Positions 5,191 to 28,111 of a DNA stretch of 64,000 nt are shown here, piece by piece; the stretch's first letter is position 1, and every line of letters begins with the position of its first letter. The stretch is from Oceanipulchritudo coccoides. Its GTDB lineage: Bacteria; Verrucomicrobiota; Verrucomicrobiia; Opitutales; Oceanipulchritudinaceae. Under the pieces are notes generated by a model. That model saw nothing but the letters and a program-made list of their open reading frames with translations. It had not been told where the DNA came from and did not search any database. The position numbers were made by a program, and so were the translations under genes. Where the stretch lies: the NCBI RefSeq assembly GCF_010500615.1, contig NZ_JAAGNX010000002.1, positions 176,990-240,989 on the forward strand. The letters are read 5' to 3'.

Positions 5191-5236
5191 ATTCTATCAG
5201 GAAATCCCCTCCGTAAATATCCCTTAAATACAGGAT
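5191..5236 (-). promoter_or_regulatory. Candidate regulon promoter, site 1 (TonB receptor)
   Basis: Plus-strand box ATCCCTTAAATACAGGAT at 5219-5236 matches the six-site consensus at 16 of 18 positions, in inverted orientation relative to four of the other sites. Reading toward the gene, 22 bp separate it from TAGAAT (minus strand, 5196-5191), a -10-like hexamer. The box is 82 bp from the receptor start codon. Confidence 0.6.
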
Positions 5237-5265
5237 GATCCTTTCAAAGGAATCTGAAAAGCGAT

Positions 5266-8200
5266 TCACTCGGAGAGATCGACCTGCAATCTGACGAAAA
5301 CGGCATCTGCAGGAGCAATCGAAACTGTCACTTCCTCGAAATTCCCATTAATTGGCGTGGAGCCAGTCTCAGTGGCACCAGCGGTGCTCCAACTGCCGGA
5401 TTCAAGGCTGGTCGAGCGCAAAACGGTGTAGGTCAACCCGCGCGACGCAGCGTCCAGGCGTCGCATGTAGAAAAATTCAAACTCCCCCGGGGCTCCACCC
5501 GAAGCGGGAAGAAGGTACGGCAAGGCATTGCCGTCAGTGCCGCTTGTGGGATCACCACCGAGGGCGTACTCCATTGTGTTGTTCAGCGTATCATGATCCG
5601 GGTTTCCAATCGCGAAGGCATCCGCCCCGCTAAGGCCGAATCCATCGGCCCAGACACCAAAATCATTCAGCGTCAATAAAAGCCGGACCCAGTCCTTGCC
5701 ATCCGTTGGATCCTGTTCCACTGAGGCATCCAGCCCCTGTCCTGCAAAGCCGGTGACAGTGATATTTCCGGCAGGGACAAGGCCGTTCAAGTTGGTCGAG
5801 TCAACCAAGGTATGGGTGCCGGGACCGCCTTCATAGGATAACCCATCCACTGTCAGCGACATGGATTGAAGGTTGGCGTAATATTGGATATTCACAGGAC
5901 TGACTCCACCGGGGCCAAGGACAAAGCTGAACGTGCCGGATGATCCACCGAATATCCGGTCCATGTTGATGCTGGCAGAATCTCCAATCACCTTGAAGAC
6001 GCCAGTTGAGGCAATCTGGGTTTGGCCTACAACCTCGAACGATCCTCCGCTGATTTCAGTGAGCATCCCAAAGGTCGACAAATCGGCCGCGGCGCCCCCA
6101 GTCAGGGCGAAGCTGCCGGACACCATGGAGAGGGTACCACTGCCCGTGAAATCCGCATCGATGCCTATTACCGATTGCTGGAAGGTTCCGCCATTGATCG
6201 TCAAATCCCCGTCCAATTGGACGGCATCCACATTGGGTGCAAGCATCCCGCTGGTCAGGTTGATGGCTCCGGCTGATTGAATGCCGAGGCTGTCATTCAC
6301 AAACAATGTGTTTCCGAGCGTCATCTGAAGGGCCCCGTCCTGCACGGTCAGGGTGGCTGCGGTGTCCTCCGTATCAAAGGTCACAACCGCGCCCGAATTG
6401 ATGATGACACCGTCAAAGGAGTAGACGCTCTGGGATGACCAGGGAGCGGTGACGCTGTAAATCACGGTAGCGGGAGCCCGGGCAGTAACGGTGACCGGTA
6501 CCTGAAGCTGATCGGTCGTTCCATCGAGCTGATCTTCCCAGACAAGGGTCAGCGTGGCGGTTGCTGTCTGCAGATCAGTGAGGCCGGCCACGCTGTTATC
6601 AAACTGAATCGGAAGAAAGCTGGTCGCCGGTACGGCATCCCAGAGAACATAGGGAAGCGCCTCCCCGAATGAAAAGGATCCCGGGTGGGATTCGGCTGTG
6701 AACTGGACATCGACAATCTCCACATTGGTCGGGGCAGTAAAGGACACGCCGAGGTTACCAACAGACTGTGTCTGACCCAGTGGATGATCTATTTCAACAC
6801 TGGGGGATGTACTGACATCAATGACTTCACGGTAGTCCGAACTGACGATCAGGTTTGTATCCACATAACCAGGCGTCGCGGTGGCCTTGACATTGATAAG
6901 CCAGCCGGTGGTCCCCGGCGGAAGTGCGGCATCGACGGTCCATGTACCGGCCGGGCTCTCAACAAATGAATTCACCGCGATTTCGGTCCAAGTGAGGTCA
7001 CCGGTGTAGCCCGTCCCGGTGGTGTAGATCAGGGAGGCAGAATTCAGTGCCTTGGATGAGCTGAAGACGGCCTGGACAGAGCTCCCGGATTCACTGATGC
7101 TGTCCTGCACACACCACGGGCTGCCCGAGTTGACGATGGCATCCGCGTAGTCGTAGCTTTCCGGACGGTTCCAGGTTGGGGGGTGGCCATGACCCATCCC
7201 GGGGACCAGCGAGACCATGCGGGTGCTGTTGATGGCGGCGTGGTACGTGTAGGCCTGGCTGTCGAGGGAGAAGTTGTTTTCCTGCGGCCATGAGAACCAC
7301 AGGACCGGCATCGTTGCCTGGTCCATCCGAAGCATCGGATCCCAGACATACTTGTAGAAGCTGTTGTTCCCAAGCGCGGTTCCGTACTGGTTGGGAACAT
7401 CAAACAAGTGCCCGCACCCATAGGTCGGAATGGCGAAGGCAAAACGGTCATCGATACCGATGGCGGTGCTGGTGATCACGCCTCCCCATGAAACCCCGTG
7501 CAGGCCAATCTTTGTTGCGTCGATTACCGGAATCGAGCGCATAAGGGAGTTTGCGAGAACAACATCGGCGACCGCATGGTACATCCACTGGTCCTCAAGA
7601 GGCAGGCCCGTATCGCCATAAATCCCCACGCGCACAGGCCCCGGCATACCGTGGATGGTCCAGCCGGTGTTCATCGTTGGTAGCGATGTGTCATCAGTCT
7701 GTCCCTCAAGCCCCATGGCAATGGCGGCATAACCTCGGTCATTCCACTTCTGCACCCATTCAAGGAAAGCCGTTCCCCCACCCCCGTGGGCAAGCACCAC
7801 GGCTGGGACGGGACTGCCAGCACTGGCACCTGCGGGAATGCCGATCCATGCGTAAACACGGGTCGGGTTGCCCTCATAATCCAAGGCGTCGTAGTAAATG
7901 GTCTTCAGGTCACCTGCGGAAAGGGTGGCTGGCGTCCCTCCCAGAGGGTTGTCCCCGTCGCCGTCATCCTCGTAAACGGCTGGAGCCGTGGTCAGGCCAC
8001 CGAGGGCGGCGATCGTTGCCCGGGCACCCGGATAGTCAGTGACCGAAATCTGGACGACATTGGTCACCGTATCCTGAGTGAGGGTGTAGTCGATACCTTC
8101 CACCCCAAAACCGGTGACCGTGACATTTGATGAAACTGAGGCGACATTCGGGCTGACAAACAGATCAAAAGTAGCGGGTCCACCCGTGTAGGATGAGCCA

Positions 8201-9012
8201 TCGATCACCAAGGTTGCATGGGACAGGTTCAAAAATCCATCACTGTAAATTGGACTGACTCCCGATTCGTCGAAGATAAATTCGACAGTGGCTGCGCGCG
8301 TTGTGCTGTTTATGTTCAACCGGTCCATGGTGATAGCGGCTGCATCACCTGTCACCGTGAGAGTGGTTGTGTCTGCCATGATCACCTGGCCACCGCCCAT
8401 GTCGATGGTACCACCGCTGATGTTGATCTCGTCAGTAAAAAGATAAAGGGCATCCGACGCGGCTGCGCCCTGGGCAGTGAATGTCCCACCGGTGATGTTG
8501 ATCACTCCGCCCGCCCCGTTGGTGTCGGCGAAGATCGTCCGCGGACCGCTTCCGTTATGAGTGAAGCTACCGCTGGAAAGGGTAAAGGTGCCGTTGGCTT
8601 TCACCGTGACAATGTCATCGGTGGTCAATGATCCGCCTTGGATTGTCAGGGCTCCCGGATCTGAATTTTGTGACACGATAATCGCGCCCGTGGTGAGTGA
8701 ACCGGATGGATTGATTTCAAGGAAGGCGTTGGGCGAGGGACTACCTGTTGTATTGTTCACCACTACCTGTCCTGCGGGGACGGAAACGGCGGTATCGACC
8801 TGGATCGTGCGGCTTTGGTTGATGATGGCCGTGTCGGGCACGGAGGCCGCGGGAAGCAGGTAAGTCCCGTCGCTGACGGTGGCGTTTGTCCAATTCTGCA
8901 GCCAGTTGCTGGTGGAGTCATTCGCTGCTGATGGCGTCACGTTTGCCCCGTCGAGACCGGAGGCAATAAAGAGGAAAAGGGATAAATACAACAGGGTGTG
9001 CTTTAGAAACAT
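5266..9012 (-). CDS. Secreted multidomain protein with embedded alpha/beta-hydrolase (esterase-like)
   Basis: 1248 residues with signal peptide (about 1-22). Residues about 25-330 are a beta-strand-repeat (autotransporter-like, beta-helix) region ending in a module with IDGSSYTGGPATFDLF and NVTVTGFG. Residues about 365-660 are an alpha/beta-hydrolase: oxyanion segment LAHGGGGT (about 402-409), nucleophile motif GVSWGG (Ser about 508), and a late GHGHPP that could supply the histidine. It resembles acetyl-xylan-esterase-like carbohydrate esterases, but the exact family is uncertain. A further region and a second repeat module follow (VDGLSYEGGPGTHTL), and the last ~105 residues (NNTMEYALGGDP to LQVDLSE) are shared with the proteins at 9170 and 11613. 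It probably deacylates surface-bound glycan. It has its own promoter box at 9050-9095. Confidence 0.8.
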   Translation of the reverse strand: MFLKHTLLYLSLFLFIASGLDGANVTPSAANDSTSNWLQNWTNATVSDGTYLLPAASVPDTAIINQSRTIQVDTAVSVPAGQVVVNNTTGSPSPNAFLEINPSGSLTTGAIIVSQNSDPGALTIQGGSLTTDDIVTVKANGTFTLSSGSFTHNGSGPRTIFADTNGAGGVINITGGTFTAQGAAASDALYLFTDEINISGGTIDMGGGQVIMADTTTLTVTGDAAAITMDRLNINSTTRAATVEFIFDESGVSPIYSDGFLNLSHATLVIDGSSYTGGPATFDLFVSPNVASVSSNVTVTGFGVEGIDYTLTQDTVTNVVQISVTDYPGARATIAALGGLTTAPAVYEDDGDGDNPLGGTPATLSAGDLKTIYYDALDYEGNPTRVYAWIGIPAGASAGSPVPAVVLAHGGGGTAFLEWVQKWNDRGYAAIAMGLEGQTDDTSLPTMNTGWTIHGMPGPVRVGIYGDTGLPLEDQWMYHAVADVVLANSLMRSIPVIDATKIGLHGVSWGGVITSTAIGIDDRFAFAIPTYGCGHLFDVPNQYGTALGNNSFYKYVWDPMLRMDQATMPVLWFSWPQENNFSLDSQAYTYHAAINSTRMVSLVPGMGHGHPPTWNRPESYDYADAIVNSGSPWCVQDSISESGSSVQAVFSSSKALNSASLIYTTGTGYTGDLTWTEIAVNSFVESPAGTWTVDAALPPGTTGWLINVKATATPGYVDTNLIVSSDYREVIDVSTSPSVEIDHPLGQTQSVGNLGVSFTAPTNVEIVDVQFTAESHPGSFSFGEALPYVLWDAVPATSFLPIQFDNSVAGLTDLQTATATLTLVWEDQLDGTTDQLQVPVTVTARAPATVIYSVTAPWSSQSVYSFDGVIINSGAVVTFDTEDTAATLTVQDGALQMTLGNTLFVNDSLGIQSAGAINLTSGMLAPNVDAVQLDGDLTINGGTFQQSVIGIDADFTGSGTLSMVSGSFALTGGAAADLSTFGMLTEISGGSFEVVGQTQIASTGVFKVIGDSASINMDRIFGGSSGTFSFVLGPGGVSPVNIQYYANLQSMSLTVDGLSYEGGPGTHTLVDSTNLNGLVPAGNITVTGFAGQGLDASVEQDPTDGKDWVRLLLTLNDFGVWADGFGLSGADAFAIGNPDHDTLNNTMEYALGGDPTSGTDGNALPYLLPASGGAPGEFEFFYMRRLDAASRGLTYTVLRSTSLESGSWSTAGATETGSTPINGNFEEVTVSIAPADAVFVRLQVDLSE

Positions 9013-9049
9013 GACGGGAAATGGGTAAGGAAGATGGGATTAAACAACG

Positions 9050-9095
9050 ATACTAACATATTCGCAGGAAGCCAGATATCACGTAAAAACAGTAT
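9050..9095 (-). promoter_or_regulatory. Candidate regulon promoter, site 2 (embedded-hydrolase protein)
   Basis: Plus-strand box ATCACGTAAAAACAGTAT (9078-9095), the weakest of the six but keeping the ATC...CGTAAAnAC...AT frame. On the minus strand, 22 bp separate it from TAGTAT (9055-9050). The box is 65 bp from the start codon of the gene ending at 5266. Confidence 0.5.
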
Positions 9096-9169
9096 CTAAT
9101 AGCGTTCGCCGGGGCGGTCTTCGCGTAAAAATGCAGCAAACAGCGTAAATCGTCCGGAACGGAAGGGAT

Positions 9170-11575
9170 TTATTCCTCACTCACCTGTACCGTCAGGCGG
9201 ACAAAAAGGGGATCCTGTCCGGTGAACGAGGTGAGAACATCCTCAATTCCCTGATCAATTGTCGTTATTGTGCTCCCGGCCAAGCCCACGAGGGTCCATG
9301 ATTCTGGATACAGATTGGCGGATTGCTCGACTGCGTAGAGAATGCTGCGGGCGGCCGCATCGACACGGCGACGAAAAGTGTACTCCAGTTGAGGACTCCC
9401 ATCCTTGTATCCCAAAGAAGTGACCGGCAGAATATCTGCGCTATCCCCAAGCGCAGGCTGTCCGCCCAATGCGTATTCAAGAAGGTTGACGACCCCGTCA
9501 CCGTCGAAATCGAAGGTGTCGGCGGAATTGCCGGCGTTTTCCTTTTCCCCGAAATGCTCCAGGCGCCACCGCTCAAGGGGGGAGTTCAGACGTGCAACAA
9601 GATCCTCGCCCGAGGGGAGGTAATTCTGAGGGACACCCGCCAGCAGGACAGACAGCCTTTCATAGGCAAAATCCGTGTTATTGCGGTTGGTATCCCCGTT
9701 TCTTAAAGCAAACCCGAGCAGGCGGATGCCGGCGATCGTTCCGTCGTAGGTCTTGATGACACCGGAGGCGTAAGGATCCCATGTCAGGTAGCGCGACCCG
9801 TCAGCCTCGATAATTTCATACAAGGGCAAGCTGCCATTAACTGGATGGGCATAGAGGTGAAAGGCGGCGTCATCGCGTTTGCGGAATACACGAAACTCAC
9901 TTCCACTTCCGGAATAGCCGTAACCGATCAGCGGGCTGTCGGTTTCGGAATATTCCATGGCCTGGAGCTCTGGCTCCGCAGTCAGGCCGCGTGCCTGAAT
10001 ACGCTCGGACAAATCCGCCATGCTGCTCCCAAAGGCAAAATAGAAACGTGCCCAGACGCCTGTTCCCCGGGTGAGGACATAGTTGCGCACCGCTGTAATG
10101 ACCATGTAATTACGCCACCCGTCCTCGGTTCCGTTATCTTCACCACCAGCGTAACCCACGCGCAAAAGGCTGTTCCTCGTCTGGTTTGGAATCAATGGTG
10201 CCGACTCTGGTCCGTAAACAAGGCCAAGGACGGGGGAATTGCCGGTGGGGGAATCGCTGAAGGCAGCCCATCCGCCAGTTTCCGCGAAGGACTCAGTCAA
10301 TCCGTCGCCCCATAACTCCGTCACCGGATCGCCCCATGAAGTACCATCCGGATTGGAAATAAAGCCGTACTCAGCACTGGTGCGACGGACCCCTCCCCAT
10401 GGCAGGTTGTGCCGGTTGAGAATGTCCTCCCCGTAGTTGTAGAATCCCATCGTGACCTCAATGACGCCTTTCCCGAGGTCGCGGTAGCGGGTAAACACCA
10501 GCAAATCCGACCGCCAGTCGTTGGCCGTTGTCCCGTCCTGAAAGACTTCCAGATGCGGATGCTGGGCCCAGTTGATGGTCGTGTAGCTGCGGGTTTCTGA
10601 ATCAAGGTGGGCGGCAACCTGGGGAGAATAAAACGGCTCCGTCAGGATGGGATCGCGCATGTAAACCCCGGAATGATGGATGAAGTATTTGGAGGGCGGG
10701 TCGGCATCCGGATCGTTCAGGGAGGTGGCCACCGCCACCCCTTGCCAGACTTCGTCATTCCACGGGGAATCGTTGGGTTCACTCCGGTAGGAAGGGGGAA
10801 CCGTCTCCCCGAGTGCCGGCGTGCGCAGGGAATACATGTGGCCGCCACGGCCGATCCGCATGTCCCATGAAAGAATATTCTCCCCCATCCCGCCATCAGG
10901 AAATTCCCCTGAGAGCTCGGCGTCCATGACATAGGCTTCAGAGTATGTCGGTGTCCACGCGGAGACAGTAGGCTGCAACTCACGCGTAGCGGAAAATTCA
11001 GTACCGGCATAATCCGGTGCCACCCTGCTCGACGGGACAAGGGTTCCCAGATAGGTCGAAAAGGCCGGAGGGGCGGCTAGTCGTAAACCGACACCTTTAT
11101 CCTCAACGACGATGGCCGGGCTGCGTTGTTCAAAACCCGTGAAGGTGACTTTCTGTTCGGGAAAAACATCAAGGGGAAAGATCGTTTTAACGAGAGGCAG
11201 ATACCCCTGCAATGCCTCGTAGGAGGTCCCATCGACAATGATCCCGCTGTCCTGCTCAAAAGTGAATCCGGTCACAACAAGAAGTGAGCCAATCCCCGAC
11301 CGGCCATAGTCGATAACAAGGTGTGCGTTACTCTGAAGAGTCAGGCTTCCAGCTTGATAAAAGGTGGAATTGCCTTTGAGGGTCACCGTCAACCCGGAAT
11401 TGACGAATACGTCGTCACCGGTGTTAGGAAGCCGCCCAAGAGACCAGTTGACCGCGGTTGACCATAATCCATCACCCCCCGAGTTAGTGAACGAATTGGT
11501 CGCGCCCACTGCCCCGGTCGCGGGGAGAAGGAGCAGTGTGACGGCCAGGCGGATTACCGTGGGCAGGGAAATCAT
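9170..11575 (-). CDS. Secreted protein of an unrecognised family, paralogue of the protein at 25079
   Basis: 801 residues from the ATG at 11575. I prefer this start because it opens directly into a signal peptide (MISLPTVIRLAV...ATGAVGA) and clears the upstream stop; an in-frame start at 11632 would overlap it. The N-terminal ~160 residues are a repeat module containing IIVDGTSY and VTFTGF. The central ~400 residues match the protein at 25079 along their length: GRGGHMYSLR, YFIHHSGVYMRDP, NWAQHPHLEVF, PWGGVRRTS. The C-terminal ~110 residues carry LLEYALGGQP and end FVRLTVQVSEE. I recognise no characterised family. Conserved His, Trp, Asp and Arg residues would suit a carbohydrate-active enzyme or lectin. 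It is the last gene of the fucosidase-esterase-sulfatase operon. Confidence 0.75.
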   Translation of the reverse strand: MISLPTVIRLAVTLLLLPATGAVGATNSFTNSGGDGLWSTAVNWSLGRLPNTGDDVFVNSGLTVTLKGNSTFYQAGSLTLQSNAHLVIDYGRSGIGSLLVVTGFTFEQDSGIIVDGTSYEALQGYLPLVKTIFPLDVFPEQKVTFTGFEQRSPAIVVEDKGVGLRLAAPPAFSTYLGTLVPSSRVAPDYAGTEFSATRELQPTVSAWTPTYSEAYVMDAELSGEFPDGGMGENILSWDMRIGRGGHMYSLRTPALGETVPPSYRSEPNDSPWNDEVWQGVAVATSLNDPDADPPSKYFIHHSGVYMRDPILTEPFYSPQVAAHLDSETRSYTTINWAQHPHLEVFQDGTTANDWRSDLLVFTRYRDLGKGVIEVTMGFYNYGEDILNRHNLPWGGVRRTSAEYGFISNPDGTSWGDPVTELWGDGLTESFAETGGWAAFSDSPTGNSPVLGLVYGPESAPLIPNQTRNSLLRVGYAGGEDNGTEDGWRNYMVITAVRNYVLTRGTGVWARFYFAFGSSMADLSERIQARGLTAEPELQAMEYSETDSPLIGYGYSGSGSEFRVFRKRDDAAFHLYAHPVNGSLPLYEIIEADGSRYLTWDPYASGVIKTYDGTIAGIRLLGFALRNGDTNRNNTDFAYERLSVLLAGVPQNYLPSGEDLVARLNSPLERWRLEHFGEKENAGNSADTFDFDGDGVVNLLEYALGGQPALGDSADILPVTSLGYKDGSPQLEYTFRRRVDAAARSILYAVEQSANLYPESWTLVGLAGSTITTIDQGIEDVLTSFTGQDPLFVRLTVQVSEE

Positions 11576-11612
11576 CTTGAGAAACTGATTGGGTGAAATG
11601 TCACTTTCAGGA

Positions 11613-14600
11613 TTATTCTGCCAGATCAACATTCAGGTTTATAAAAACGGAATCCCCACCTTGTACTTCCGTTGTAACGGACTCGAAGTCGGCATCGACA
11701 GGATCTGTCCCGGTCTCCGTAACCCCCGCCGTATCCCAACTGCCGGGCTGCAGGGTTGTGGACCTTTGGACCGTATAGGCAAGACCGCGTGTGGCCGCAT
11801 CAGGCCGACGACGGTAAACATACTCCAAAGCTCCAGGAACGCCCCCGGCATTGGTAACGAGAAATGGAAGAACAGAGAAGTCACCACCTTGGGTTGGGTC
11901 ACCCCCAAACGCATATTCCATCAGGTTGATCAATTGATCCCTGTCAGGATTTGCCTCCGGGGCGTCCGCAGGCACTTCCTCCATAAACTCAAAGAGCGTC
12001 TCTCCGCCGATCGCGGAAATAACAATGTTGCTGATCGTGACAGCAGGCGTTGAAGCGGTCCCGATTTCACGGGCAAAGCCAAGTACGATGTAGTCATAAC
12101 CGGATACAGTATCCGGGGCGGTTGTGAAGGTTGACAGGTCAAATATTTGGCTGAAATTTGCCGATCCGCTGGCCCCTTCAATGAGGACTGCCGCATCGCT
12201 TGCCTTGCCGGGCGTATCAGTAAATATGCCGTCAGCCTGCCCGAGATTGTAGGCCGTCATCGCCCCAAGGGCCGACTCCCATGCATTGCCGTTTGAACCC
12301 CCTGTATTGATGGTTTTTGTCGTCGAGACGGAGGAAACATCCACATATCCCCACAGGTGAACATACAGTTTCTCAGATGAATCCCCAGTGGAGTAATCGA
12401 AGCTCAGTTGGATTTGGTTTTCCGGTCCATCAGGCAGGGCTGAAAGGTCAAAAACCCGTCCGATGGCGCCTTCCCCCACCCTTGAGTTAATAAGGCTGGA
12501 ATTTGCCAGAATTCCATGGGTAATAGTCCATGCGCTGTCGGAATACTTGTAGAAACCTGTGGCATCCCGTTCCACTGGCAAAGACGTCGCTCCCACCGTG
12601 TTCAGGTCGGGATCACCGGGAATCAGGTCCAGGCCAAATGAAGCGGCCCAAGTGTCATAGGGGCTCACCACGCTGCCGTGGAGGGCGAAGACCAGATCAT
12701 TATCGGGCTGTTCGGCACCTGCCGAAAAGGGCGGGTAGATGGTCTCGGTTGTCGAACTTGCGTACAAGCGAGCCCCGCCTGTGTATGTTCCACCGCCGTT
12801 TGCCCTCCAAAAGTTGATAAGGTGGTCGCTTGCATTGCTTTGCCATGCCAACTGAAAGGCGTATTGACCCGGTTCGAGAAGCACATCTGTGAAATCAATC
12901 GTGTAGTAGTTCAGGTTGGTGAAGGATGATTCCGAAAGGTCGATCCACTCGAACACTTTTGTATCCTCCGAAGCCGGACTGGGCGTGCCTCCGCTATATT
13001 TTCCAATCCACAACGTCAGCTTGTAATCCCCTGTCCCGAAGCTTGTCGTGGATGCGCTCTTCAGCGTCAGGGAGGTCAGCAGAGTACTGCTGGTGATGGT
13101 AAAGGTCTGTCCACCGGCCTGAACGGGGCTGCCGCTGGTGTCATCGCGTATGGGCACGCCAGCAAGCTCGGCGACCTCATTGCTGAGGACGACATCATTC
13201 GTCGGAAAGGCAATCCCGGCATCTGTGACGAGCGCTTCAGCCGCGGGCTCCCTGACATAGCGGGGGACAATCGTGGAGTCCTTGCCGGTATTGATGTTTA
13301 CGGCTCCGACATCAACTGAGCTGACGAGGAAATTGTTTTCATCAATCAGGTTGAAGACAAAATGAGTCGTTCCATCCGGAATGGTTATCTCAGCATATCC
13401 TGAGGCTGGGACAAACGGCACATTGAGATCAAACCATTCCTCGTTGACACTGTTGTCTCCATTGGGCGTGTAAATGAGCTCCACCCGTTCGACCGCAGCC
13501 TTGTCGGTCTCAAACGTAACCCATGCCACCCCGTTCGAGCTTCCCGAGTCAATTACCGCCGGCACCTGGTCCTTATTCAGAAGGGTCTGGGAAGTTTTTG
13601 GATTATAATGAGGAACACTGGCATCCACCGAAGTCAGCCAGCTTTCGAGCTCGGAGGCCAGTTGAGAGACCATTGTCGGTTGCGTGGCATAGAGGTCGTT
13701 TGCTTCCTCGATGTCCTCGCGCAGGCCGCTTGGATCGTACAGCTCGTAAAGACGGTATGGCTCCAGGGCAGGATTATTAACATGGTCCCAGTTCTTGAAA
13801 AGTTTCCAGCCATCCTTGCGAATGGTACTTTGGAGCGCGTTCCCATGAGGAAAATGCCAGAACATGGTGTCCCGGACGGCTCCTCCGGGATGGGTGACCA
13901 GGTCCGGATCCTGCGGGTCGCTCAGAAGGAGCGAGCTCAGATCACAGCCGTCGAGCCGTTCCGGAATCGGCATACCCGCAAGGGCGAGCATGGTCGGGTA
14001 CAGGTCCAATCCGTTGACCATGACCTCACTTGTCAAACTGGCGGGAACATCCGCGCCCAGAACGATGAAGGGAACGCGTGTTCCACCCTCTTCCGCGTGG
14101 ATCTTCCCTTCATCAAGAGGGAAATTGTCGGTGATCCACTCGTTGCTGGCAGTACCCTCGTAGCCGCCGTTATCCGATGTAATGAAAACATATGTGTTCT
14201 CGATGAGTTTGTGTCCCGGCCAACGCGGATCGTCGGTGTCTTTTAGATAGGTGAGGATGCGATGTACATTGTAGTCAAAAGTTTCCACCATGGCTGCGTA
14301 GAAGGGGTTGTTCTGCCCTTCGGCGAAGAACTCGCTTCCGTCGAGCGGATAGGAATACCCCATCAATCCGGCATATTTCTGAAGCAGACTTTCCGTACGC
14401 ATCTGTATGGGGGTATGTACAAGCCAGGAGGCATAATAACAGAAGAAAGGATCCTCCCTGGTGACCGCTTCATCAAGAAAAGTCAGGGCATCCTCTGTTG
14501 TCTGGTCGAAGGCGAATCCATTGGCATCGAGTTGATACGGATCAGACGGGTCGGTTGTTCCGAAACCGGTCAACCGATCGCTCATGCCAACTGTCACTCC

Positions 14601-15107: not shown

Positions 15108-15134
15108 TACGGAATTTCCAGATTTTGGATATCT

Positions 15135-16016: not shown

Positions 16017-16019
16017 CCT

Positions 16020-17792
16020 TCACATTATGGGGACAAGGCGGATTGATTTCAGGCTGGCTTCCCCGTTTTCATCTTCTAGACAGCTGACATGAATCCGGTA
16101 ACGCCCGGGTTCCGGGAAGTGAATCCAGCCAATTGGATACTCCTCGTAGTTGTGCGAGGAATCCTGCTCGTTCTGGATATGTTCCCCGCCCTCGACGGAA
16201 ACGCCCCAGACAATTCTTCCTTTTCCCGCGTAGCTCAGACTGGCTAGATATTCTCCCGGGTGAATGACATCAACTTCCCACGAGGCGGTACTGTCCGGGC
16301 TCCATTCATGGATCCGGGTGAGCCGTACCCATTCGCCAAATTTTTCCATCCAGCGAAGGCTGGATTTCTCAGCGCCGTCAACTTCGGCAAATTCGGCCAG
16401 AATCTCTGTCCCGACAAGGGGGTCCAGACCGAAGGTCTGATCGACATCCGGCGGTCCGGCCAATTCCACTTCAATAACGGAAACAAGCAAATCAGGGGCA
16501 CAGGATGGCAGGGTGAAGATGGTCCAATTTCCTTCGCGGGAATACGGGACAGCCTGGGGGCCATCCGGGGTCAGTATATGCGCGCTTTTGATTTCTGATT
16601 TCAACCCGGGGAGATATAACCTGTCCAGAGGCATCCAGTCGAATATGCAGAGGGAAAGTGTATTGCCATTGGTTGTCACATCACCCCATGGCAATGCATG
16701 TCCCCATGGAGACGGCCCGCTTCTGTAAATGACTTGTGGATTTGATTGTATCCATTGGCCAGCTACACGAAGCACACGGGATGCCCTCACGGGCACACTG
16801 CCATCACCGCGCGGCCCGATGTTCAACATATAGGTTCCGCCTCGGGCCACTGTGGATATGAGACGATTCAGGATTTCCCTGGGGGACTTCCAGTTCTCGT
16901 CATACCATGCGTATCCCCATGAATTATTTGTGGTATCCACGCTTTCCCACATTCCGTCAATGTTGTGGTGAGGGACCTCCATGTCTCCAAGGGTCTGGTA
17001 ATCTCCCAGTCCATGCCCTGCCCGGCCTGAAACCAAGGCATTCGGTTGGTTCCTGCGAACGACCTCGACCAGCTGCTCCACATAGTGCTTGGGCATTTCA
17101 CCGGGTGTATCAAACCAGACCAGAGCAATCGGACCATACTGTGTGGTAATTTCCTCGACTTGTGGCAGGCACTTTTCCCTGAAGTAATCGTCAAAGCTGG
17201 CGCTTTCCCCATTCTCCTTTTTATCCGGTCCATTGTGGCCCCCTGGATACGTCCAGTCCTGGTTGTGTGAATAGTAGAATCCGAATCCCAGGCCTGCTTT
17301 CTGACATGCATCTGAAAGCTCCTTCATCGGGTCGTGTCCCCATGGAGTGGAATCAACGATATCAAAGTCAGAAACTTCCGAGTCATACATCGCGAAGCCG
17401 TCATGATGCTTGCTGGTGATGACAATGTATTTCATACCGGCGTCCTTTGCCAGCTGGACAATTGCCTCAGCATCAAAATTCAGCGGATTAAACTCCTCCG
17501 CAAGTTGCTTGTAGTCGCCGATGGGAATACCTGCCATCCGGTCGCTCATGATCCATTCGCCGATTCCGTAATAGGTTTTTCCATTCACCTTGTTGCCCAG
17601 ATGCGAATAGAGCCCCCAATGGATGAACATTGCGTAGTTGCCTTCCTCGAACAGTTGACCACGGGCAGAATTTTCCGCACGAAGTTTGACGGTGGAATCG
17701 CCCCACATCGCATCCATATTCTCTGCGGGGAGGATCACTTGAAGCAGAAAGAGGCAGCAAAGGGAGAAACTTATGGGGCGCATCATAGGCAT
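16020..17792 (-). CDS. Alpha-L-fucosidase, GH29
   Basis: 590 residues with a secretion signal (hydrophobic stretch about 6-22). The GH29 barrel is clear: YAMFIHWGLYSH (about 53-64), SKHHDGFAMYDS (128-138) and nucleophile region LVWFDTPGE (Asp228), with YMLNIGPRGDG further on. The last ~110 residues form a beta-sandwich resembling a carbohydrate-binding module (ASWEVDVIHPGEY...GRYRIHVSC). It releases terminal alpha-L-fucose by a retaining mechanism and defines the fucose-rich substrate of the locus. It is first in a four-gene operon. The predicted -10 (17796-17801) is so close that transcription would begin at or inside the first codons, so ATG 17786 or 17783 may be the real start; both keep the signal peptide. 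Confidence 0.93.
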   Translation of the reverse strand: MPMMRPISFSLCCLFLLQVILPAENMDAMWGDSTVKLRAENSARGQLFEEGNYAMFIHWGLYSHLGNKVNGKTYYGIGEWIMSDRMAGIPIGDYKQLAEEFNPLNFDAEAIVQLAKDAGMKYIVITSKHHDGFAMYDSEVSDFDIVDSTPWGHDPMKELSDACQKAGLGFGFYYSHNQDWTYPGGHNGPDKKENGESASFDDYFREKCLPQVEEITTQYGPIALVWFDTPGEMPKHYVEQLVEVVRRNQPNALVSGRAGHGLGDYQTLGDMEVPHHNIDGMWESVDTTNNSWGYAWYDENWKSPREILNRLISTVARGGTYMLNIGPRGDGSVPVRASRVLRVAGQWIQSNPQVIYRSGPSPWGHALPWGDVTTNGNTLSLCIFDWMPLDRLYLPGLKSEIKSAHILTPDGPQAVPYSREGNWTIFTLPSCAPDLLVSVIEVELAGPPDVDQTFGLDPLVGTEILAEFAEVDGAEKSSLRWMEKFGEWVRLTRIHEWSPDSTASWEVDVIHPGEYLASLSYAGKGRIVWGVSVEGGEHIQNEQDSSHNYEEYPIGWIHFPEPGRYRIHVSCLEDENGEASLKSIRLVPIM

Positions 17793-17795
17793 TGA

Positions 17796-17840
17796 ATCTT
17801 ATCAGAAAGGCGTCATTTGCCTATCCCGTTTTTGAGGGAT
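17796..17840 (-). promoter_or_regulatory. Candidate regulon promoter, site 3 (fucosidase operon)
   Basis: Minus-strand box ATCCCTCAAAAACGGGAT (17840-17823) is followed after 21 bp by TAAGAT (17801-17796). The box lies only 30 bp from the first candidate ATG, implying a very short or absent leader for the fucosidase mRNA. Confidence 0.6.
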
Positions 17841-17877
17841 GGAGCGACAGGCAGGATTAATTTTTCGGGGAACCGGA

Positions 17878-19704: not shown

Positions 19705-19726
19705 AAGGGTAACTATATTCTGAGGT

Positions 19727-19757
19727 AAAAAAAACGGCTTCCCGCGAGAGAAGCCGT
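19727..19757 (-). terminator. Rho-independent terminator after the PEP-CTERM gene
   Basis: Inverted repeat ACGGCTTC (19734-19741) and GAAGCCGT (19750-19757), 8 bp with an 8-base loop. On the minus strand it is followed by a run of eight T (complement of 19727-19734). It would end or attenuate transcription before the sulfatase at 17878-19704. Confidence 0.8.
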
Positions 19758-19800
19758 CCTCTTGGAAGATATCCTTCTCAAGGAAAAGAGTGCAAACGGT

Positions 19801-20862
19801 TTACTTCAGGGAGCGGCGACGCCAACTCACAAGGCCAAGAGCAAAAAGTCCAAAGTATATGGCGACCACGGATGGCTCGGGAACGACTTGGATAGCCAGT
19901 GAATCTCCACCCGATCCATCCATATCCGCAAGCCAGTTCCAACCGGTCCCTTCATCTCCCAAGCCGGTCACAGTGAGATTCGAGGTCGAAAAGTCGTTAC
20001 TTATATTGCTGGCAGTGATGAGGGTAAAGGTGCCGGGCCCACCAGCGTAGGCCGAGCCATCTATGAGAATTGTAAGCTGGTCAAGATTCACGAACGACGC
20101 ATCGGCCGCGATTGTGCTGATGCCCGACGCATTGAAAATATATTGTATGGTCCCGTCTCGTCCAGCAGCAGTCGTATTAAGGCGATCCATTGTCACCGTG
20201 GCTGCATCACCGGTGATCGTGACGGTCGGGGAGTTCCCAAAAATTACCTGACCTCCGCTCAGGTCAAAAACGCCTCCCGTGATATTGACTGAGGTGCGCA
20301 AGGTGAGTAGATGCGTTGCTGCACTGCCCTGAGCGATGAAGGACCCACTTGAAACATTGATCACTCCTCCCCCCGTGGAAACGACCCGGGCACCAGAATT
20401 CGTACTCGTGTAGGCTCCGCCGCTCACGTTCAAAGTGCCTGCTGAATTGATGACTAAGTCACCCGTATTAATCAGCGACCCGCCTGTTTCGATATTAACA
20501 ATTCCCTCATCGGCTCCAGCATTAACATTTGCCAGCGTGAGGGATCCGAGCGTGAGACCGCCACCGCTTTTCACGTTCAGGTAGCTGGGATTCCAATTGC
20601 CGATCGTGTTTCCAACCAGAGCCGAAAGCGCCTGGTTGCCAGTTGTTGTGACATTGGCCGTCTTCTGCTGATTTATCAGCACATCGTCCGAAGCATTCGG
20701 CTCCAATCCGGTACTCCACTGGGTGCCATCATCCCAATCGATGATGTTTCCTGCCGGATTTATAATTGAAACTGCGGCTGTGGCACTGATGACAGTCGCG
20801 AGGAACCCGACCACTAAAAAGGAGAGACGCGGTTGTGAAGTAGGTTTGCAGTGGATAGTCAT
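19801..20862 (-). CDS. PEP-CTERM repeat protein
   Basis: 353 residues with signal peptide (about 1-29). The body is a beta-strand-repeat structure rich in G, S, T and N. It ends in a module with TVTITGDAATVTMDRL and IDGSAYAGGPGTFTL, homologous to parts of the proteins at 5266 and 22798. The C-terminus is a textbook PEP-CTERM signal: VVPEPS, a hydrophobic span of about 18 residues and a basic tail (SWRRRSLK). Exosortase would cleave and anchor or secrete it; no exosortase gene is in this window. It is probably a surface scaffold or adhesin for the glycan. It lies 60 bp downstream of the EF-hand gene and has a terminator after it. Confidence 0.85.
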   Translation of the reverse strand: MTIHCKPTSQPRLSFLVVGFLATVISATAAVSIINPAGNIIDWDDGTQWSTGLEPNASDDVLINQQKTANVTTTGNQALSALVGNTIGNWNPSYLNVKSGGGLTLGSLTLANVNAGADEGIVNIETGGSLINTGDLVINSAGTLNVSGGAYTSTNSGARVVSTGGGVINVSSGSFIAQGSAATHLLTLRTSVNITGGVFDLSGGQVIFGNSPTVTITGDAATVTMDRLNTTAAGRDGTIQYIFNASGISTIAADASFVNLDQLTILIDGSAYAGGPGTFTLITASNISNDFSTSNLTVTGLGDEGTGWNWLADMDGSGGDSLAIQVVPEPSVVAIYFGLFALGLVSWRRRSLK

Positions 20863-20922
20863 AAGGGTTGGAGATTGAGATTTAGAAATGTAAAGAGTTT
20901 AGATTGCGCCAATGCGTGAAAT

Positions 20923-21261
20923 TTACTGCGGTAGCTCCTCGGGGGTCAGGACGCTGTCGCCGTCCTTGTCCCAAGCCGTGAAGTGGCGCTTGCGGACGGC
21001 GAGGTTCTCCTCGAGTGAGACGACGCCATCCTGGTTGGTATCCCACGCAGGCCCGGGGGCTTTGAATTCATCCGGCTGAAGAACGCCGTCCTTGTTCTTG
21101 TCCTGATGGTTATGGACCTTCGTCCAGCGGTTCATGAATTCCTCCTCGGTGACCTTGCCATCCTTGTCGGCATCCATGGTGTCAAACATCTTGCCCGCGT
21201 GCGCGGTGCAAGCCAGGGCGGCGATTAATCCGAAGGGGACGAGTTTCTTGAAGGAATACAT
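20923..21261 (-). CDS. Small secreted four-EF-hand protein
   Basis: 112 residues from the ATG at 21261, chosen because it opens into a signal peptide (MYSFKKLVPFGL...TAHA) and lies downstream of the promoter box; an upstream in-frame start would overlap the sulfatase gene. The mature ~90 residues hold four calcium loops: DADKDGKVTEEE, DKNKDGVLQPDE, DTNQDGVVSLEE and DKDGDSVLTPEE. Order and spacing match the C-terminal tail of the sulfatase at 17878, so it looks like that domain encoded alone. It likely acts outside the cytoplasm as a calcium-dependent binding or bridging protein. No other function can be read from it. Confidence 0.85.
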   Translation of the reverse strand: MYSFKKLVPFGLIAALACTAHAGKMFDTMDADKDGKVTEEEFMNRWTKVHNHQDKNKDGVLQPDEFKAPGPAWDTNQDGVVSLEENLAVRKRHFTAWDKDGDSVLTPEELPQ

Positions 21262-21307
21262 GTTATTGAGGTATTGAGATTGTGGTTCGAAGGGTATGAG
21301 GACGGGT

Positions 21308-21353
21308 AGACTACCAGTGAAAGGGGAAACTGTGTATCCCGTATTTGCGGGAT
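21308..21353 (-). promoter_or_regulatory. Candidate regulon promoter, site 4 (EF-hand / PEP-CTERM unit)
   Basis: Minus-strand box ATCCCGCAAATACGGGAT (21353-21336), then 22 bp, then TAGTCT (21313-21308). The box is 74 bp from the EF-hand start codon and directly follows the stop of the upstream sulfatase gene. Confidence 0.65.
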
Positions 21354-21361
21354 TCTGATGG

Positions 21362-22768: not shown

Positions 22769-22797
22769 AAGGCTATTGTTTAGAGCGTGGGCGATGC

Positions 22798-24939
22798 TCA
22801 CTGGGGAGCGGTGGAAACCCGGTAGAAGGCCTTATCGCCAGCGGTTGGAGCCGGATCCGTGAAGGATAGGTCGGCGCCGGTACCCGGCTTGGTCTCGACG
22901 GGCGTCCAGCCTGAAAGGACAGAAGACGACTCGAGGGTATAATCAAAGCCGGTCTTGCTGTCAGCGGCATCGACGGTGATCGTCAGGGTCCCGGCTGATT
23001 CCGATACATCGAGGAATATCGGCTCAAGGGGCGGGTCACCGAATACAATCTGGAAGAGATTGAGGAAGGTGTCCTGCCTGACAAACCAGTCAACGCCCTG
23101 CGTTCCGGCCGCACCGGTCACGTTCACGGCCAACGGAAGGCTGGCGACATTCTGGGTATCCACCAAATCGAAGACGCTGTCCAACCCGGCCCCACCACCG
23201 CCGGCAAGGGCCGCGGCTTGGATGTTGATGGTCAGGTTCTGGAGATGGGCAAACCCGGCACAGTCGATCCGGCCAACCCCATTGGCATCAAAGGTGTAAT
23301 TCAAGATGGTGCCCGCGCCCGAGATCATGAAGTCCTTGGGAGCGACGAGGCTGCCCACTCCCCCGATGTTCAGCGTGGTCGTCCCTCCAAAACCAAAGCG
23401 GATCCGGGCATCGGAGACGATGGACCCCCCGTCCACGGTGACAGTGTTGTTTTTGAAATCCGTGACGGCGTTCAAGTTGGCAGGATTGTTGACTTCCACC
23501 GTTCCGCCATTCGTCACGCTGAGTGTGCCGGCACCTGTGGTGATGGCTTTCGTGGGATCGGTTGTGTTGGAGGAATTCCGGTACACGGCACCGACTCCAG
23601 AGACTTGAAGCGTTCCGGCAGCATTCACCAGGCTGACCAGACCCAGACATTCAAGCGTGCCTCCTGCATTGACCGCAAGCACATCAGCTGCACCCGCTGT
23701 GGAGACCTGGATCAGGCTGGCAGTCAGTTTCCCTCCAGCATTGATATTCAAGGTGCCGGTATTGGCGGGTTGGTTGCCGACCCTCAAGGTATCGGGGACG
23801 GCAGCGGAGGCATCCGTATCGAGGTTGGCAATATTGTTGTTGTTGATGACGGCCGTGTCACCTGCCACAGGAACGCGGGCCAGCGACCAGTTCAGGGCAT
23901 TATTGTAATCCCCGTTCGGCTTATTGAACACGTTCGGTCCGGCCGCGGCAGCCGGGGAAAGGACTAATTCAAAAACATCGGTGGTGTCATTGATGTTCAT
24001 CGAAACACTGAATCCCGGAAAACCCAACACGGTGACAATAGCCGAGATTCCGCCAATCTGGTCGTAGCCGGTGCCTGTGAATAGCGGGAAGGAGCCCGTG
24101 CCGCCGGTGTAGTTGGTCCCGTCAATGACAATTGTGGCATTGTTGAGGCGCGTTGTGCCATCCACCTTGATCGGGCTGATGCCCGTGGCATTGAAGTTGA
24201 ACTCAAAGGTGGTTGCCCGCGACGCGTTGTTTACCAAGAGGCTCGATCCAAAATCAATGGTGGCCGTATCACCTGTCACAGACACCGTTGAACCGAGATA
24301 CCCCACCACGGTGGCGCTGGAAAAATCAACCGTTCCCCCGCTGATCCCAAGGTATTCGGTTGTCAGCTGAAGAAAGCTCCCGGGCGCCTGCGAAGTCTGC
24401 AGGGTTCCTCCGGAGATCTCATAGGATCCGGTGACGGGTGCGGAATCGGTGCCCCCGAGGAAGTGGGATGCGGTTGTGGTGGACGTGTAGGAGCCCGAGC
24501 TGATGCTCACGAGGCCCAAAGCCCCGATTGCAGCCGTCCCGTTCACGGTTAAGGCCCCACCATTGATATTGACAGTGCCAATCCCGTCATTCGTGGAATC
24601 GACCACGAGACCGGTAACGACAAGGGCTCCGCCCGCATCGATATTCAGGGTGCCCTCACTTGTGTTGTTCGGAATGACTAGCGAGGTGGGAACAGATCCA
24701 GATACATCGCTTGCCAGGTTGGCGATCCTGCCACCGTTGATAACGGCCGTATCGCCAGCTGAGGGCAGCGCCGTCGCCGGGGCTCCTGCAGTGACATTGT
24801 TCCAATTGGCAACCGTTGCGTAATCGTCGTCGGCCGCGATGAATGCAAGTGTGTCGGCATGGACGGTGCATGCCAAGGCGAGCAGGGCAGCGGACGCGGA
24901 AAGGGATTTCCGGAGAATGGGGTAGAATGAATTCTTCAT
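22798..24939 (-). CDS. Secreted beta-repeat protein
   Basis: 713 residues with signal peptide (about 1-28, ...TVHA). Two tandem beta-strand-repeat halves each open with a motif like DTAVINGGRIANL or DTAVINNNNIANL and a GTLNI[DN]AGG repeat. The first half ends in the module with TVSVTGDTATIDF and IDGTNYTGGTGSF; a divergent copy closes the second half. The C-terminal ~65 residues (TLESSSVLSGWTPVE...AFYRVSTAPQ) resemble the last part of the C-terminal module of other locus proteins. No catalytic motif is visible. It is probably a surface scaffold or glycan-binding protein. Promoter box at 24999-25045; it leads the unit with the sulfatase at 21362. Confidence 0.8.
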   Translation of the reverse strand: MKNSFYPILRKSLSASAALLALACTVHADTLAFIAADDDYATVANWNNVTAGAPATALPSAGDTAVINGGRIANLASDVSGSVPTSLVIPNNTSEGTLNIDAGGALVVTGLVVDSTNDGIGTVNINGGALTVNGTAAIGALGLVSISSGSYTSTTTASHFLGGTDSAPVTGSYEISGGTLQTSQAPGSFLQLTTEYLGISGGTVDFSSATVVGYLGSTVSVTGDTATIDFGSSLLVNNASRATTFEFNFNATGISPIKVDGTTRLNNATIVIDGTNYTGGTGSFPLFTGTGYDQIGGISAIVTVLGFPGFSVSMNINDTTDVFELVLSPAAAAGPNVFNKPNGDYNNALNWSLARVPVAGDTAVINNNNIANLDTDASAAVPDTLRVGNQPANTGTLNINAGGKLTASLIQVSTAGAADVLAVNAGGTLECLGLVSLVNAAGTLQVSGVGAVYRNSSNTTDPTKAITTGAGTLSVTNGGTVEVNNPANLNAVTDFKNNTVTVDGGSIVSDARIRFGFGGTTTLNIGGVGSLVAPKDFMISGAGTILNYTFDANGVGRIDCAGFAHLQNLTINIQAAALAGGGGAGLDSVFDLVDTQNVASLPLAVNVTGAAGTQGVDWFVRQDTFLNLFQIVFGDPPLEPIFLDVSESAGTLTITVDAADSKTGFDYTLESSSVLSGWTPVETKPGTGADLSFTDPAPTAGDKAFYRVSTAPQ

Positions 24940-24998
24940 TTTTCTTTCAACAAGGGTTGATTGCGGGGTTAGGACGGAGCGCCATTAAACGCTCTACA

Positions 24999-25045
24999 AT
25001 CGTAGCAAATTCACCGGGTGATCCGGTATCCCGTCTTTACGGGAT
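24999..25045 (-). promoter_or_regulatory. Candidate regulon promoter, site 5 (repeat protein / sulfatase unit)
   Basis: Minus-strand box ATCCCGTAAAGACGGGAT (25045-25028): two perfect 7-bp arms around four bases, the best consensus copy. After 23 bp comes TACGAT (25004-24999). The box is 88 bp from the start codon at 24939. There is no T-run after it, so it is not a terminator. Confidence 0.7.
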
Positions 25046-25078
25046 GACTGTAAATCCAGAATTCAAGCGCCCTTGCGC

Positions 25079-27397
25079 TCAGGGAGCCGGGACTGAATAA
25101 TCAATGCGATAAAAGAGTCTGGGAGTGACTCCATCTGGGGATTCGATCGCTTGATCGATCAGGGAATTTGTCCCGACATCAGGAGAGGTAAAGCCTGACC
25201 AGCCCTGAAGATCCAAGGATTTCTCGATAAAATAGTTCCAGCCAACCGGAACCCGGTGGCGCAGAAGCAAGTCTCCGGAATCCGCAAGGATTTCCTGGGT
25301 AATTGCAGAAGCCCCGTCGGTGCCGGCGTAAAGGACCTGACTGAGTCCCCCTTCGATCGTGTTGGGTGAAAGGAGCAAACTGTTGACGAGTTCGGCCTCG
25401 GTGCCGAAGTCCTCGATTCCACCGGTTGTGGGCGAAACAAACCCGAGCAGACGCCACTGGTCGGTATTGCCGTTATAGGGGCGCCAGAAGCCATCACCCG
25501 GGGCTCCCCCGGCGTGCGCCAGTTGGTAGAAGTTATCTGTCAGGACAATGTCGGTCGGCGAACCCGATGATTCGACCAGGAAGAATACCAAGTCCTTTCC
25601 GTCATCCGGTGTGGAATTGAACGGAGGTTGTGAATTGCCTGAAAAAAGACGCCCTCCAGCGGCGTAGTCCCCTTCCCCATCGGCCCGCTTGAAGGAGATA
25701 TTCGGGCGTGAAGGATCCTGTGTGGTCCAACCGATCTGGAAAGCATAGTCCCCAGCCGGCAGTTCCAGATCGGGAATATCAAAGGCATAAAAATCCCCCG
25801 CCAGCCAGTTGGTATTCTGGACGTCTATTAAATACGCATTGCCGGGCAAGACCGGATTCGGGGCATTAAACGCGCCGATCCAGATCTTGAGGACATGGGT
25901 CCCCGATCCAAAACTGGAATTGCTCCCACACTTCAGCACAAAGGCGTCGAGTGTTCGTGTCTCCGTCAGGCTGAACGATTGCCCGCCGGACTGCTGAAAG
26001 TCGAGATCCCAACGCACCGGCACACCGGTTGTGTCGCCAGTGGTCTGGCTGATGATGATGTTCTGAATGGGGGCTGTCGCACCGAGTGAATTGACGGTAG
26101 CGTCAGCCGGCAACGTGCCGCTTTCCACAAGCAGGGGCCGCCAACCGGGTATCGGAACGGAGGAAACATGGAACCACGGGTCCTGGGTGGCACCAGCGGT
26201 TGCGCCTGGCTCAATCGGGGGGCCGGCAAGGGATGCATACAAGGGCTGGCTAATGCCGGGGTCGGTCGACGCATAGGTCAACGGGGTAAGTCCGGCCTTG
26301 GCCACCAGGCCATGCGTCGCAATGAGCCCGGTAGTCGTCGATTCCCGGCCGATGACAAGGAAATAGCGGACATGGACCGTTTCTCCCGGGTTCAGGGTGA
26401 TGAAGTGGCGCACGGCACTGACGTAAAAGTTCCGCCAGGAGGTTTCGTCGACGGGGAAGGGCTCGCTCTGCGAGGAGGCCGCACCCCACCGCCACTCCGA
26501 AGCACGCCGGGCGCCGGACGGAGTAGTTTGCCCGAAAACCACGGTAAGGCTCGGCGCGTCGGAAGCGCTGGATTCTGCATAACTGGCATAGCCGTCGGTG
26601 GCGCTCAATAGCGTCAGGTTCGGATCGGAAAATAATCCACCGGAAAGGACGCGCAGGCCGCCATTGTAGATGTAATGATTGGGAAGGCTGCTCCGCCTCA
26701 CGCCCGTCCAGGGAAAATTGAAAAAATCCAGCACCTCGTCGCCTGCATTATGCAGGACATATTCCACCTCAAGGATTCCCTCACCCCGGTCGGTGATGCG
26801 CTGGAAGAGAATCTGGCCGGACTTATGGATTGTCGGAACATGCGCATGCTGGCTCCAGTTGGCTGTTACCAGTTGGCCTGCCGGCGAGTTGATGGCAGAA
26901 GCCAGCAGCGGGCTGAAAAAGGGTGTGTCGGTGTAAGGTGGATCATCAAGGTAGATGCCAGCCCCGTGGATGAAATACGGGTCTGTTTCCGTGTTGAGAG
27001 TAGTGTTGACTGATACCGGCATCGTCACTTCATCCACCCAAGGAGCGCGGTCAGGATTTGCTCCACCCCTGAATTGCGGCGGGATCCACTCATCCCCGTT
27101 GGCGCGGATCGAAAAGATCTGCCCGCCCTTGCCGACGCGGACCGTCCAGTTGCCCAGGCTGCTGCTTGTCCCCTTGAGCGAAAAGGCGAAGACATCCGTC
27201 TCGGGGAAACTCACCGACCACGGGGACGCATCCACTGGGTCATAGATATCCGAAACAGTCGCAATGGGGCCACCTGCCGTCCAGACGGTTGGCGCGGGAA
27301 AGACGCTGTCAAAGTCATAGCCGGCCTGCGCCGCAAGCGGCAACAGGAGGGCTGGAAAGAGAAAGATCTGGATTCGTATGCTTGGTAACTTGGCCAT
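25079..27397 (-). CDS. Secreted protein of an unrecognised family, paralogue of the protein at 9170
   Basis: 772 residues with signal peptide (about 1-25). The central region (about 60-420) aligns with the protein at 9170: GKGGQIFSIR, YFIHGAGIYLDDP, PFFSP, NWSQHAHV and PWTGVRRSS. It lacks that protein's N-terminal repeat module. Residues about 470-620 instead carry the module also found in the sulfatase at 11613 (LKIWIGAFN, YAFQIGWTTQD, DLVFFLVESS). The last ~60 residues (IEKSLDLQGWS...RLFYRIDYSVPAP) resemble the other C-terminal modules. I recognise no named family; a carbohydrate-active enzyme is a reasonable guess from context. It is a single-gene unit behind the promoter box at 27461-27507. 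Confidence 0.75.
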   Translation of the reverse strand: MAKLPSIRIQIFLFPALLLPLAAQAGYDFDSVFPAPTVWTAGGPIATVSDIYDPVDASPWSVSFPETDVFAFSLKGTSSSLGNWTVRVGKGGQIFSIRANGDEWIPPQFRGGANPDRAPWVDEVTMPVSVNTTLNTETDPYFIHGAGIYLDDPPYTDTPFFSPLLASAINSPAGQLVTANWSQHAHVPTIHKSGQILFQRITDRGEGILEVEYVLHNAGDEVLDFFNFPWTGVRRSSLPNHYIYNGGLRVLSGGLFSDPNLTLLSATDGYASYAESSASDAPSLTVVFGQTTPSGARRASEWRWGAASSQSEPFPVDETSWRNFYVSAVRHFITLNPGETVHVRYFLVIGRESTTTGLIATHGLVAKAGLTPLTYASTDPGISQPLYASLAGPPIEPGATAGATQDPWFHVSSVPIPGWRPLLVESGTLPADATVNSLGATAPIQNIIISQTTGDTTGVPVRWDLDFQQSGGQSFSLTETRTLDAFVLKCGSNSSFGSGTHVLKIWIGAFNAPNPVLPGNAYLIDVQNTNWLAGDFYAFDIPDLELPAGDYAFQIGWTTQDPSRPNISFKRADGEGDYAAGGRLFSGNSQPPFNSTPDDGKDLVFFLVESSGSPTDIVLTDNFYQLAHAGGAPGDGFWRPYNGNTDQWRLLGFVSPTTGGIEDFGTEAELVNSLLLSPNTIEGGLSQVLYAGTDGASAITQEILADSGDLLLRHRVPVGWNYFIEKSLDLQGWSGFTSPDVGTNSLIDQAIESPDGVTPRLFYRIDYSVPAP

Positions 27398-27460
27398 CTG
27401 TGTGCGAGGGTGTCAGGGTACCTCCACCCACAAGGTAACTGAACAAGGGAAGGATTTGCA

Positions 27461-27507
27461 ACTGTAGCACAAGTTCCAATGGTCACGTCATCCTGTGTTC
27501 ACAGGAT
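27461..27507 (-). promoter_or_regulatory. Candidate regulon promoter, site 6 (gene 25079-27397)
   Basis: Minus-strand box ATCCTGTGAACACAGGAT (27507-27490), with perfect 7-bp arms around four bases. After 23 bp comes TACAGT (27466-27461). The box is 92 bp from the start codon at 27397. The bases just before the -10 (TGC) are the same as at site 5. Confidence 0.65.
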
Positions 27508-28087: not shown

Positions 28088-28111
28088 TTTTGTTTCCTCG
28101 GTGAAATTCGC

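Follow-up and report, generated by a model that had tools for sequence, protein, structure and literature searches.

Six promoter boxes of a verrucomicrobial fucan locus are very probably docking sites of a fucan-sensing two-component switch encoded nearby

Gene content of the fucan locus

The DNA analyzed here (the window) comprises 64,000 nucleotides of the 3.52-Mb genome of Oceanipulchritudo coccoides (C2:176990-240989), and statements about the whole genome rest on pattern searches. The locus carries genes for GH29, GH95, several sulfatases, esterases, a TonB-dependent-receptor-like protein, and a symporter, and within the window it contains six inverted-repeat boxes, numbered 1 to 6 from left to right. 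On the minus strand, the target genes of these boxes include those for the TonB-dependent receptor-like protein (1615..5136), which has a weak match to the plug family PF07715 and an orthologue in genome G023 that also lies behind a box, the GH29 alpha-L-fucosidase (16020..17792; PF01120, E=4.7e-73), and a small exported EF-hand open reading frame (ORF) recognized by reading the sequence (20923..21261), while an AXE1-like esterase of 1248 aa (5266-9012) is encoded behind box 2. The same strand encodes two endo-1,3-fucanase-like enzymes, one without a box of its own (9170..11632) and one that is a further target gene (25079..27397). Both are without a Pfam match, yet they match solved endo-1,3-fucanases, the former 9k1g (E=1.7e-46) and also 8jd7 and the latter 8jd7 (E=3.8e-41). 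These matches, together with GH29, GH95, and several sulfatases, support well the reading of the region as a fucan locus, which had been proposed in an initial annotation made from the letters and ORFs of the window. In addition, a 713-aa protein (22798-24939, minus strand, behind box 5) without a match in Pfam, NCBIfam, or PDB sequences and a 353-aa protein (19801-20862, minus strand, downstream of box 4) without a match in Pfam or NCBIfam are candidates for new fucan-active proteins.

Other genes of the window were also of note. Immediately right of box 6 (27524-29452) are genes for a PduT-like shell protein of microcompartments and for a PduS-like protein, neither with a box of its own; the window genes scanned showed no complete operon for a fucose microcompartment. 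Farther right lie a fusion of a GNAT acetyltransferase domain to an acetyl-CoA hydrolase/transferase (34952-36898) and a primary sigma-70 factor whose N-terminal region has a weak match to the histone H1-like HC2 (41172-43262).

Boxes and their fixed promoter layout

Searching the initially proposed box pattern with up to three mismatches returned 12 matches in the window versus 1.02 expected, and none of 100 shuffles reached 12. All six boxes first listed were present, five of them with intact ATCC...GGAT ends; the weak one, box 2 (9078-9095, ATCACGTAAAAACAGTAT), is degenerate, with two mismatches. Two copies had been described as inverted, which merely reflects the asymmetric centre of a palindrome, and the promoters lie on the minus strand in six of six cases. 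The reported distance of 21-23 bp between each box and a TAnnnT hexamer was recovered, and the hexamer turned out to belong to a fuller element that had gone unnoticed, the extended -10 TGnTAnnnT, at every box.

Box 1 (ATCCTGTATTTAAGGGAT, 5219..5236) is located 82 bp ahead of the receptor gene 1615-5136, with its extended -10 (TGATAGAAT, 5191..5199) at 22 bp, counted from box to TA. Box 2, ATACTGTTTTTACGTGAT (9078..9095; matrix score 16.0 of 23.4), precedes the esterase gene 5266-9012, and its extended -10, TGTTAGTAT, lies at 9050..9058, also 22 bp away. The fucosidase gene 16020-17792 is preceded by box 3 (ATCCCTCAAAAACGGGAT, 17823..17840), 21 bp from TGATAAGAT (17796..17804). Box 4 (ATCCCGCAAATACGGGAT, 21336..21353) is placed 22 bp from TGGTAGTCT (21308..21316) and ahead of the EF-hand ORF 20923-21261 and gene 19801-20862, so that the first gene behind it is this small ORF and not a long-leader gene. 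Boxes 5 (ATCCCGTAAAGACGGGAT, 25028..25045) and 6 (ATCCTGTGAACACAGGAT, 27490..27507) both have perfect 7-bp arms and a spacing of 23 bp, the former to TGCTACGAT (24999..25007) ahead of gene 22798-24939 and the latter to TGCTACAGT (27461..27469) ahead of the fucanase-like gene 25079-27397. All of these boxes and -10 elements are on the minus strand.

Since TGnTAnnnT covers only 0.6% of upstream sequence at one of the three allowed spacings (3.1% for TAnnnT), its occurrence at six of six boxes is far beyond chance. The boxes are situated 30-92 bp ahead of start codons, and reckoned from the predicted -10 they span about -52 to -35. No -35 hexamer above chance was found, the mean best match being 2.5/6 versus 2.45 for random sequence. 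This is the layout of a class II activator and upholds the earlier proposal of an activator-type position beside promoters otherwise devoid of a -35.

Confinement of the box to one locus

Genome-wide, the pattern ATCC-N10-GGAT-N16-22-TGnTAnnnT had eight matches, a count that leaves out the weak box 2, and the reversed-pattern control had none. Seven of the eight fell within C2:168703-204479, that is, the 36-kb fucan locus, so the random scatter raised as a concern in the initial annotation was not observed; the eighth (C1:542081) is not a palindrome and was rejected. Two of the seven are located just left of the window: the box at C2:168703 precedes a sodium:solute symporter gene, and the one at C2:176095 (TGGTATGCT at 21 bp) precedes an operon for a 408-aa protein, a kinase, a response regulator, and an esterase. 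The regulon comprises at least eight promoters. Boxes at C1 47809, ahead of an NAD-synthase gene, and C1 71074, within a predicted ORF, have no extended -10 at 21-23 bp and were taken as chance occurrences. A possible ninth site, ATCCCGTATTTAAGGGGT, was seen ahead of a sulfatase gene at L006:7463-7480 (C2:164462), with TATAGT 21 bp downstream and without TGn.

A two-component system next to the window

The initial annotation held that the regulator was not encoded here, which is true of the window only, as two-component genes occur within the locus 2.3-5.1 kb to its left. The response regulator (C2:171914-172615, 233 aa) lies 4.4-5.1 kb and the HisKA_3 kinase (C2:172612-174699) 2.3-4.4 kb left of the window edge, the two genes overlapping by 4 bp. 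The regulator has a NarL/LuxR-type architecture, with a receiver domain (PF00072, E=3.6e-21) and a C-terminal GerE domain (PF00196, E=1.4e-16); the kinase matches PF07730 (E=1e-5) above the curated cut-off and HATPase_c (E=2.2e-5) just below it. By sequence, the closest solved relatives of the regulator are VraR (5hev, E=1.9e-27) and NarL (1a04, 1.1e-24), with DesR (4ldz) also of the NarL family, and the HisKA_3 type of the kinase partner is the same as in NarX, UhpB, and LiaS. No NCBIfam equivalog cut-off was reached, and the recognition helix and operators are unlike those of VraR, NarL, and DesR. The plasmid collection yielded no homologue of the regulator. Regulators of the LacI, GntR, AraC, or other one-component types were dropped as candidates, given a NarL-type regulator in the locus whose helix tracks the box. 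A second, related two-component pair is encoded at L006:397-3053 (C2:157396-160052).

A structural model of the kinase sensor was built on the L244 orthologue, which is 48% identical to this kinase (23 sequences; pLDDT 84). The model contains two beta-sandwich domains that in structure most resemble CBM32 modules and related lectin domains: residues 35-159 of the orthologue matched 4zz5_A (Z 11.4, rmsd 1.9 Å over 100 residues), and residues 158-335 matched 4lqr (Z 10.6, rmsd 2.7 over 118 residues). In the kinase of O. coccoides itself, the match to the F5/8-C family (PF00754) was 18.7 bits, under the cut-off of 28.2. The periplasmic part of the kinase is thus predicted to comprise two carbohydrate-binding domains like CBM32 or F5/8 type C, and a glycan ligand is plausible from the model, bearing in mind that a fold does not prove a ligand.

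Linkage of box and regulator across genomes

A search of 273 genomes from the order for the box with its -10 gave 17 matches in seven genomes, versus one for the reversed-pattern control. Boxes occurred near regulator homologues that had been found independently by protein search, at 1.6 kb in G047, 3.7 kb in G077, and 15 kb in G188; in G188, four of the five near-matches genome-wide lay within 26 kb around the regulator. The box is conserved in orthologous loci, as the initial annotation had asked of a genuine element. Gene order is shared in part: in locus L203, the regulator gene and then a box come ahead of genes for an esterase (55% identical), GH29 (64%), and a sulfatase (51%). At L188:4213, L189:2989, L244:7814, and L142:5282, a single box lies midway between extended -10 elements that point in opposite directions, and it apparently serves both.

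The loci were then grouped by regulator protein, the own-type recognition helix being defined as [GST]Y[STAP]T[VL]D[TS]HV. An own-type box (score ≥19) was present in 14 of 33 loci with an own-type helix versus 1 of 73 with other helices (Fisher p=9e-8, shared ancestry uncorrected); a few comparison loci had been fetched for holding a box, and those without a regulator were kept out of this test. Loci chosen by regulator sequence alone contained own-type boxes in Opitutales, Pelagicoccus, Pontiellaceae, Akkermansiaceae, and Planctomycetota. A box scoring ≥18 was absent in 18 of the 33 own-type-helix loci, some of which are short contigs. The box cannot be fully predicted from the helix, because several own-type-helix loci are without one: no own-type box was found in the Pirellulales group (helix IGYSTVDTHVSHIYKKL), nor a convincing one in L127 of G101, where the helix is near-identical. 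At L141, an own-type box goes with a regulator whose helix is different; the genome of L141, which is also that of L139, has three regulators.

Sister regulators are accompanied by 7-4-7 palindromes with other letters at the same promoter position. In a letter-free scan of 711 kb around regulator homologues, with the O. coccoides genome left out, inverted repeats with a loop of 4 located 21-23 bp upstream of TGnTAnnnT numbered 30 versus 5.0±2.1 per other bin, and those with perfect arms numbered 11 versus 0.31. The excess appeared only at even loops, with the centre fixed ∼31 bp from the -10, and this distance was 30-32 bp in all 24 listed promoters. Of 94 kinase-gene promoters, 20 contained a perfect 7-4-7 repeat, versus 4.5 in shuffles. 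No excess was seen in Planctomycetota by the letter-free extended -10 scan (0 matches), and own-type boxes are present in their Aporhodopirellula and Rhodopirellula loci; perhaps their -10 may differ.

Helix and box arm changed together across these regulators, Y.TVDTHV being paired with ATCCYGT, TTVAYHVQ with ACCCTCT, KTVAIHAG with ATAGGYM, FFT.AAHIR with ATAGAAC, and TVVTHV with ATCCTCA (Mantel r = 0.68, p=2e-4, 20 pairs, shared ancestry uncorrected). Moreover, a second regulator on contig L127 of G101 (helix LSFFTVAAHIRNIYEKL) is adjoined by three exact ATAGAAC-N4-GTTCTAT boxes, the sole exact ones in G101, and like boxes were therefore expected at the second regulator of O. coccoides (LSFFTIAAHIRNIYEKL). 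As predicted, two one-mismatch copies (L006:3146 and 4125) adjoin it, with no further copy at that stringency elsewhere in the genome. The box type of this neighbouring second system, ATAGAAC, differs from that of the fucan boxes.

Proposed mechanism and alternative explanations

Taken together, the six boxes are very probably docking sites of a fucan-sensing two-component switch whose genes lie just left of the window, and the proposal of one regulator for all of them is supported. More specifically, the highly probable reading, drawn from sequence comparison, is that they serve as operators of the NarL/LuxR-type regulator at C2:171914-172615, which would act with a glycan-sensing kinase in class-II-type activation of the fucan genes. 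The kinase would sense a fucan-type glycan or its fragments outside the inner membrane and phosphorylate the regulator, a dimer of which, as the covariation of helix and box suggests, would bind the 7-4-7 inverted repeat centred near -43 (about -52 to -35). The bound dimer would replace the missing -35 contact and recruit polymerase to the extended -10 promoters, thereby switching on the fucan genes together with the operon of the kinase and regulator.

Some NarL-family regulators also repress, and a site spanning about -52 to -35 coincides in part with the contacts of polymerase, so the same regulator might instead block polymerase beside the -10 until the glycan signal releases it. We consider this improbable: promoters with a -35 at chance level should be weak unaided, a fixed distance from box centre to -10 is needed for activation and not for repression, and ComA promoters of similar layout are activated (PMC4797271). 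Activation is favored over repression because the phase is fixed and the -35 is missing.

Binding by this regulator is deduced from sequence, and its kinase operon is itself boxed; the linkage could then reflect control by an unlinked transcription factor, with the two-component genes as co-regulated passengers. This is very unlikely, as a third party would not track the recognition helix of this regulator, and yet the box letters co-vary with that helix across paralogues, own-type boxes concentrate with own-type helices, and the box of the second regulator was correctly predicted from another genome. Finally, inverted repeats can pair, but there is next to no chance that the boxes are RNA hairpins, terminators (already dismissed in the initial annotation), or repeat elements, as they have no T-run, precede start codons by 30-92 bp, lie upstream of the -10 and hence outside the transcript of that promoter, and can serve two divergent promoters from one palindrome (L188, L189, L244, and L142).

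Relation to known systems and implications

A known counterpart of similar layout is ComA of Bacillus subtilis, which activates promoters with a poor -35 and an extended -10 from the box TTGCGG-N4-CCGCAA (PMC4797271). The regulator class, the 4-bp-spaced inverted repeat, the extended -10, and the weak -35 are all found here, whereas the arms measure 6 bp in ComA versus 7 bp here, the letters differ, as do sensor, phylum, and function, and the present box abuts the -35 position while the ComA repeat lies further upstream. ComA promoters also have a direct repeat between box and -10; no counterpart was found here, as half-sites did not recur at a fixed position downstream of the boxes.

In Pontiella agarivorans, genes for histidine kinases (PF07730, PF02518) and response regulators (PF00072) have been noted in the vicinity of glycoside hydrolase and sulfatase genes, and these belong to the same Pfam families as the genes here; the portion of that paper searched describes neither a binding site nor a regulon, and neither a sensor fold nor a specificity series (PMC10880615). 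A published description of this box-regulator system was not found in the open-access literature searched.

Glycan-responsive regulators encoded within the locus, with many paralogues per genome, are familiar from the polysaccharide utilization loci of Bacteroides, which use hybrid two-component systems or SusR-type regulators. In contrast to those hybrids, which are one protein with an AraC-type DNA-binding domain, and to SusR, the system described here has a separate kinase and NarL-type regulator and a predicted CBM-like sensor.

Carbohydrate-sensing NarL-type two-component systems are likely to form a large, so far undescribed family that controls glycan loci across Verrucomicrobiota and Planctomycetota and in which every paralogue has a 7-4-7 operator of its own, always at one and the same place in the promoter. 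These phyla include major degraders of sulfated algal fucans, and how such gene sets are switched on is apparently undescribed in the literature searched. Because box, regulator, and sensor can be named from sequence, the proposal is directly testable. With up to ten paralogues per genome, it could be used to predict the sensor in charge of a given glycan locus, and if it is true, genome sequence alone would assign each glycan locus to its sensor. The series of helices and half-sites also provides material for working out how NarL/LuxR-type DNA-binding domains encode specificity and, on the same condition, would represent a natural recognition code for the LuxR-type helix.
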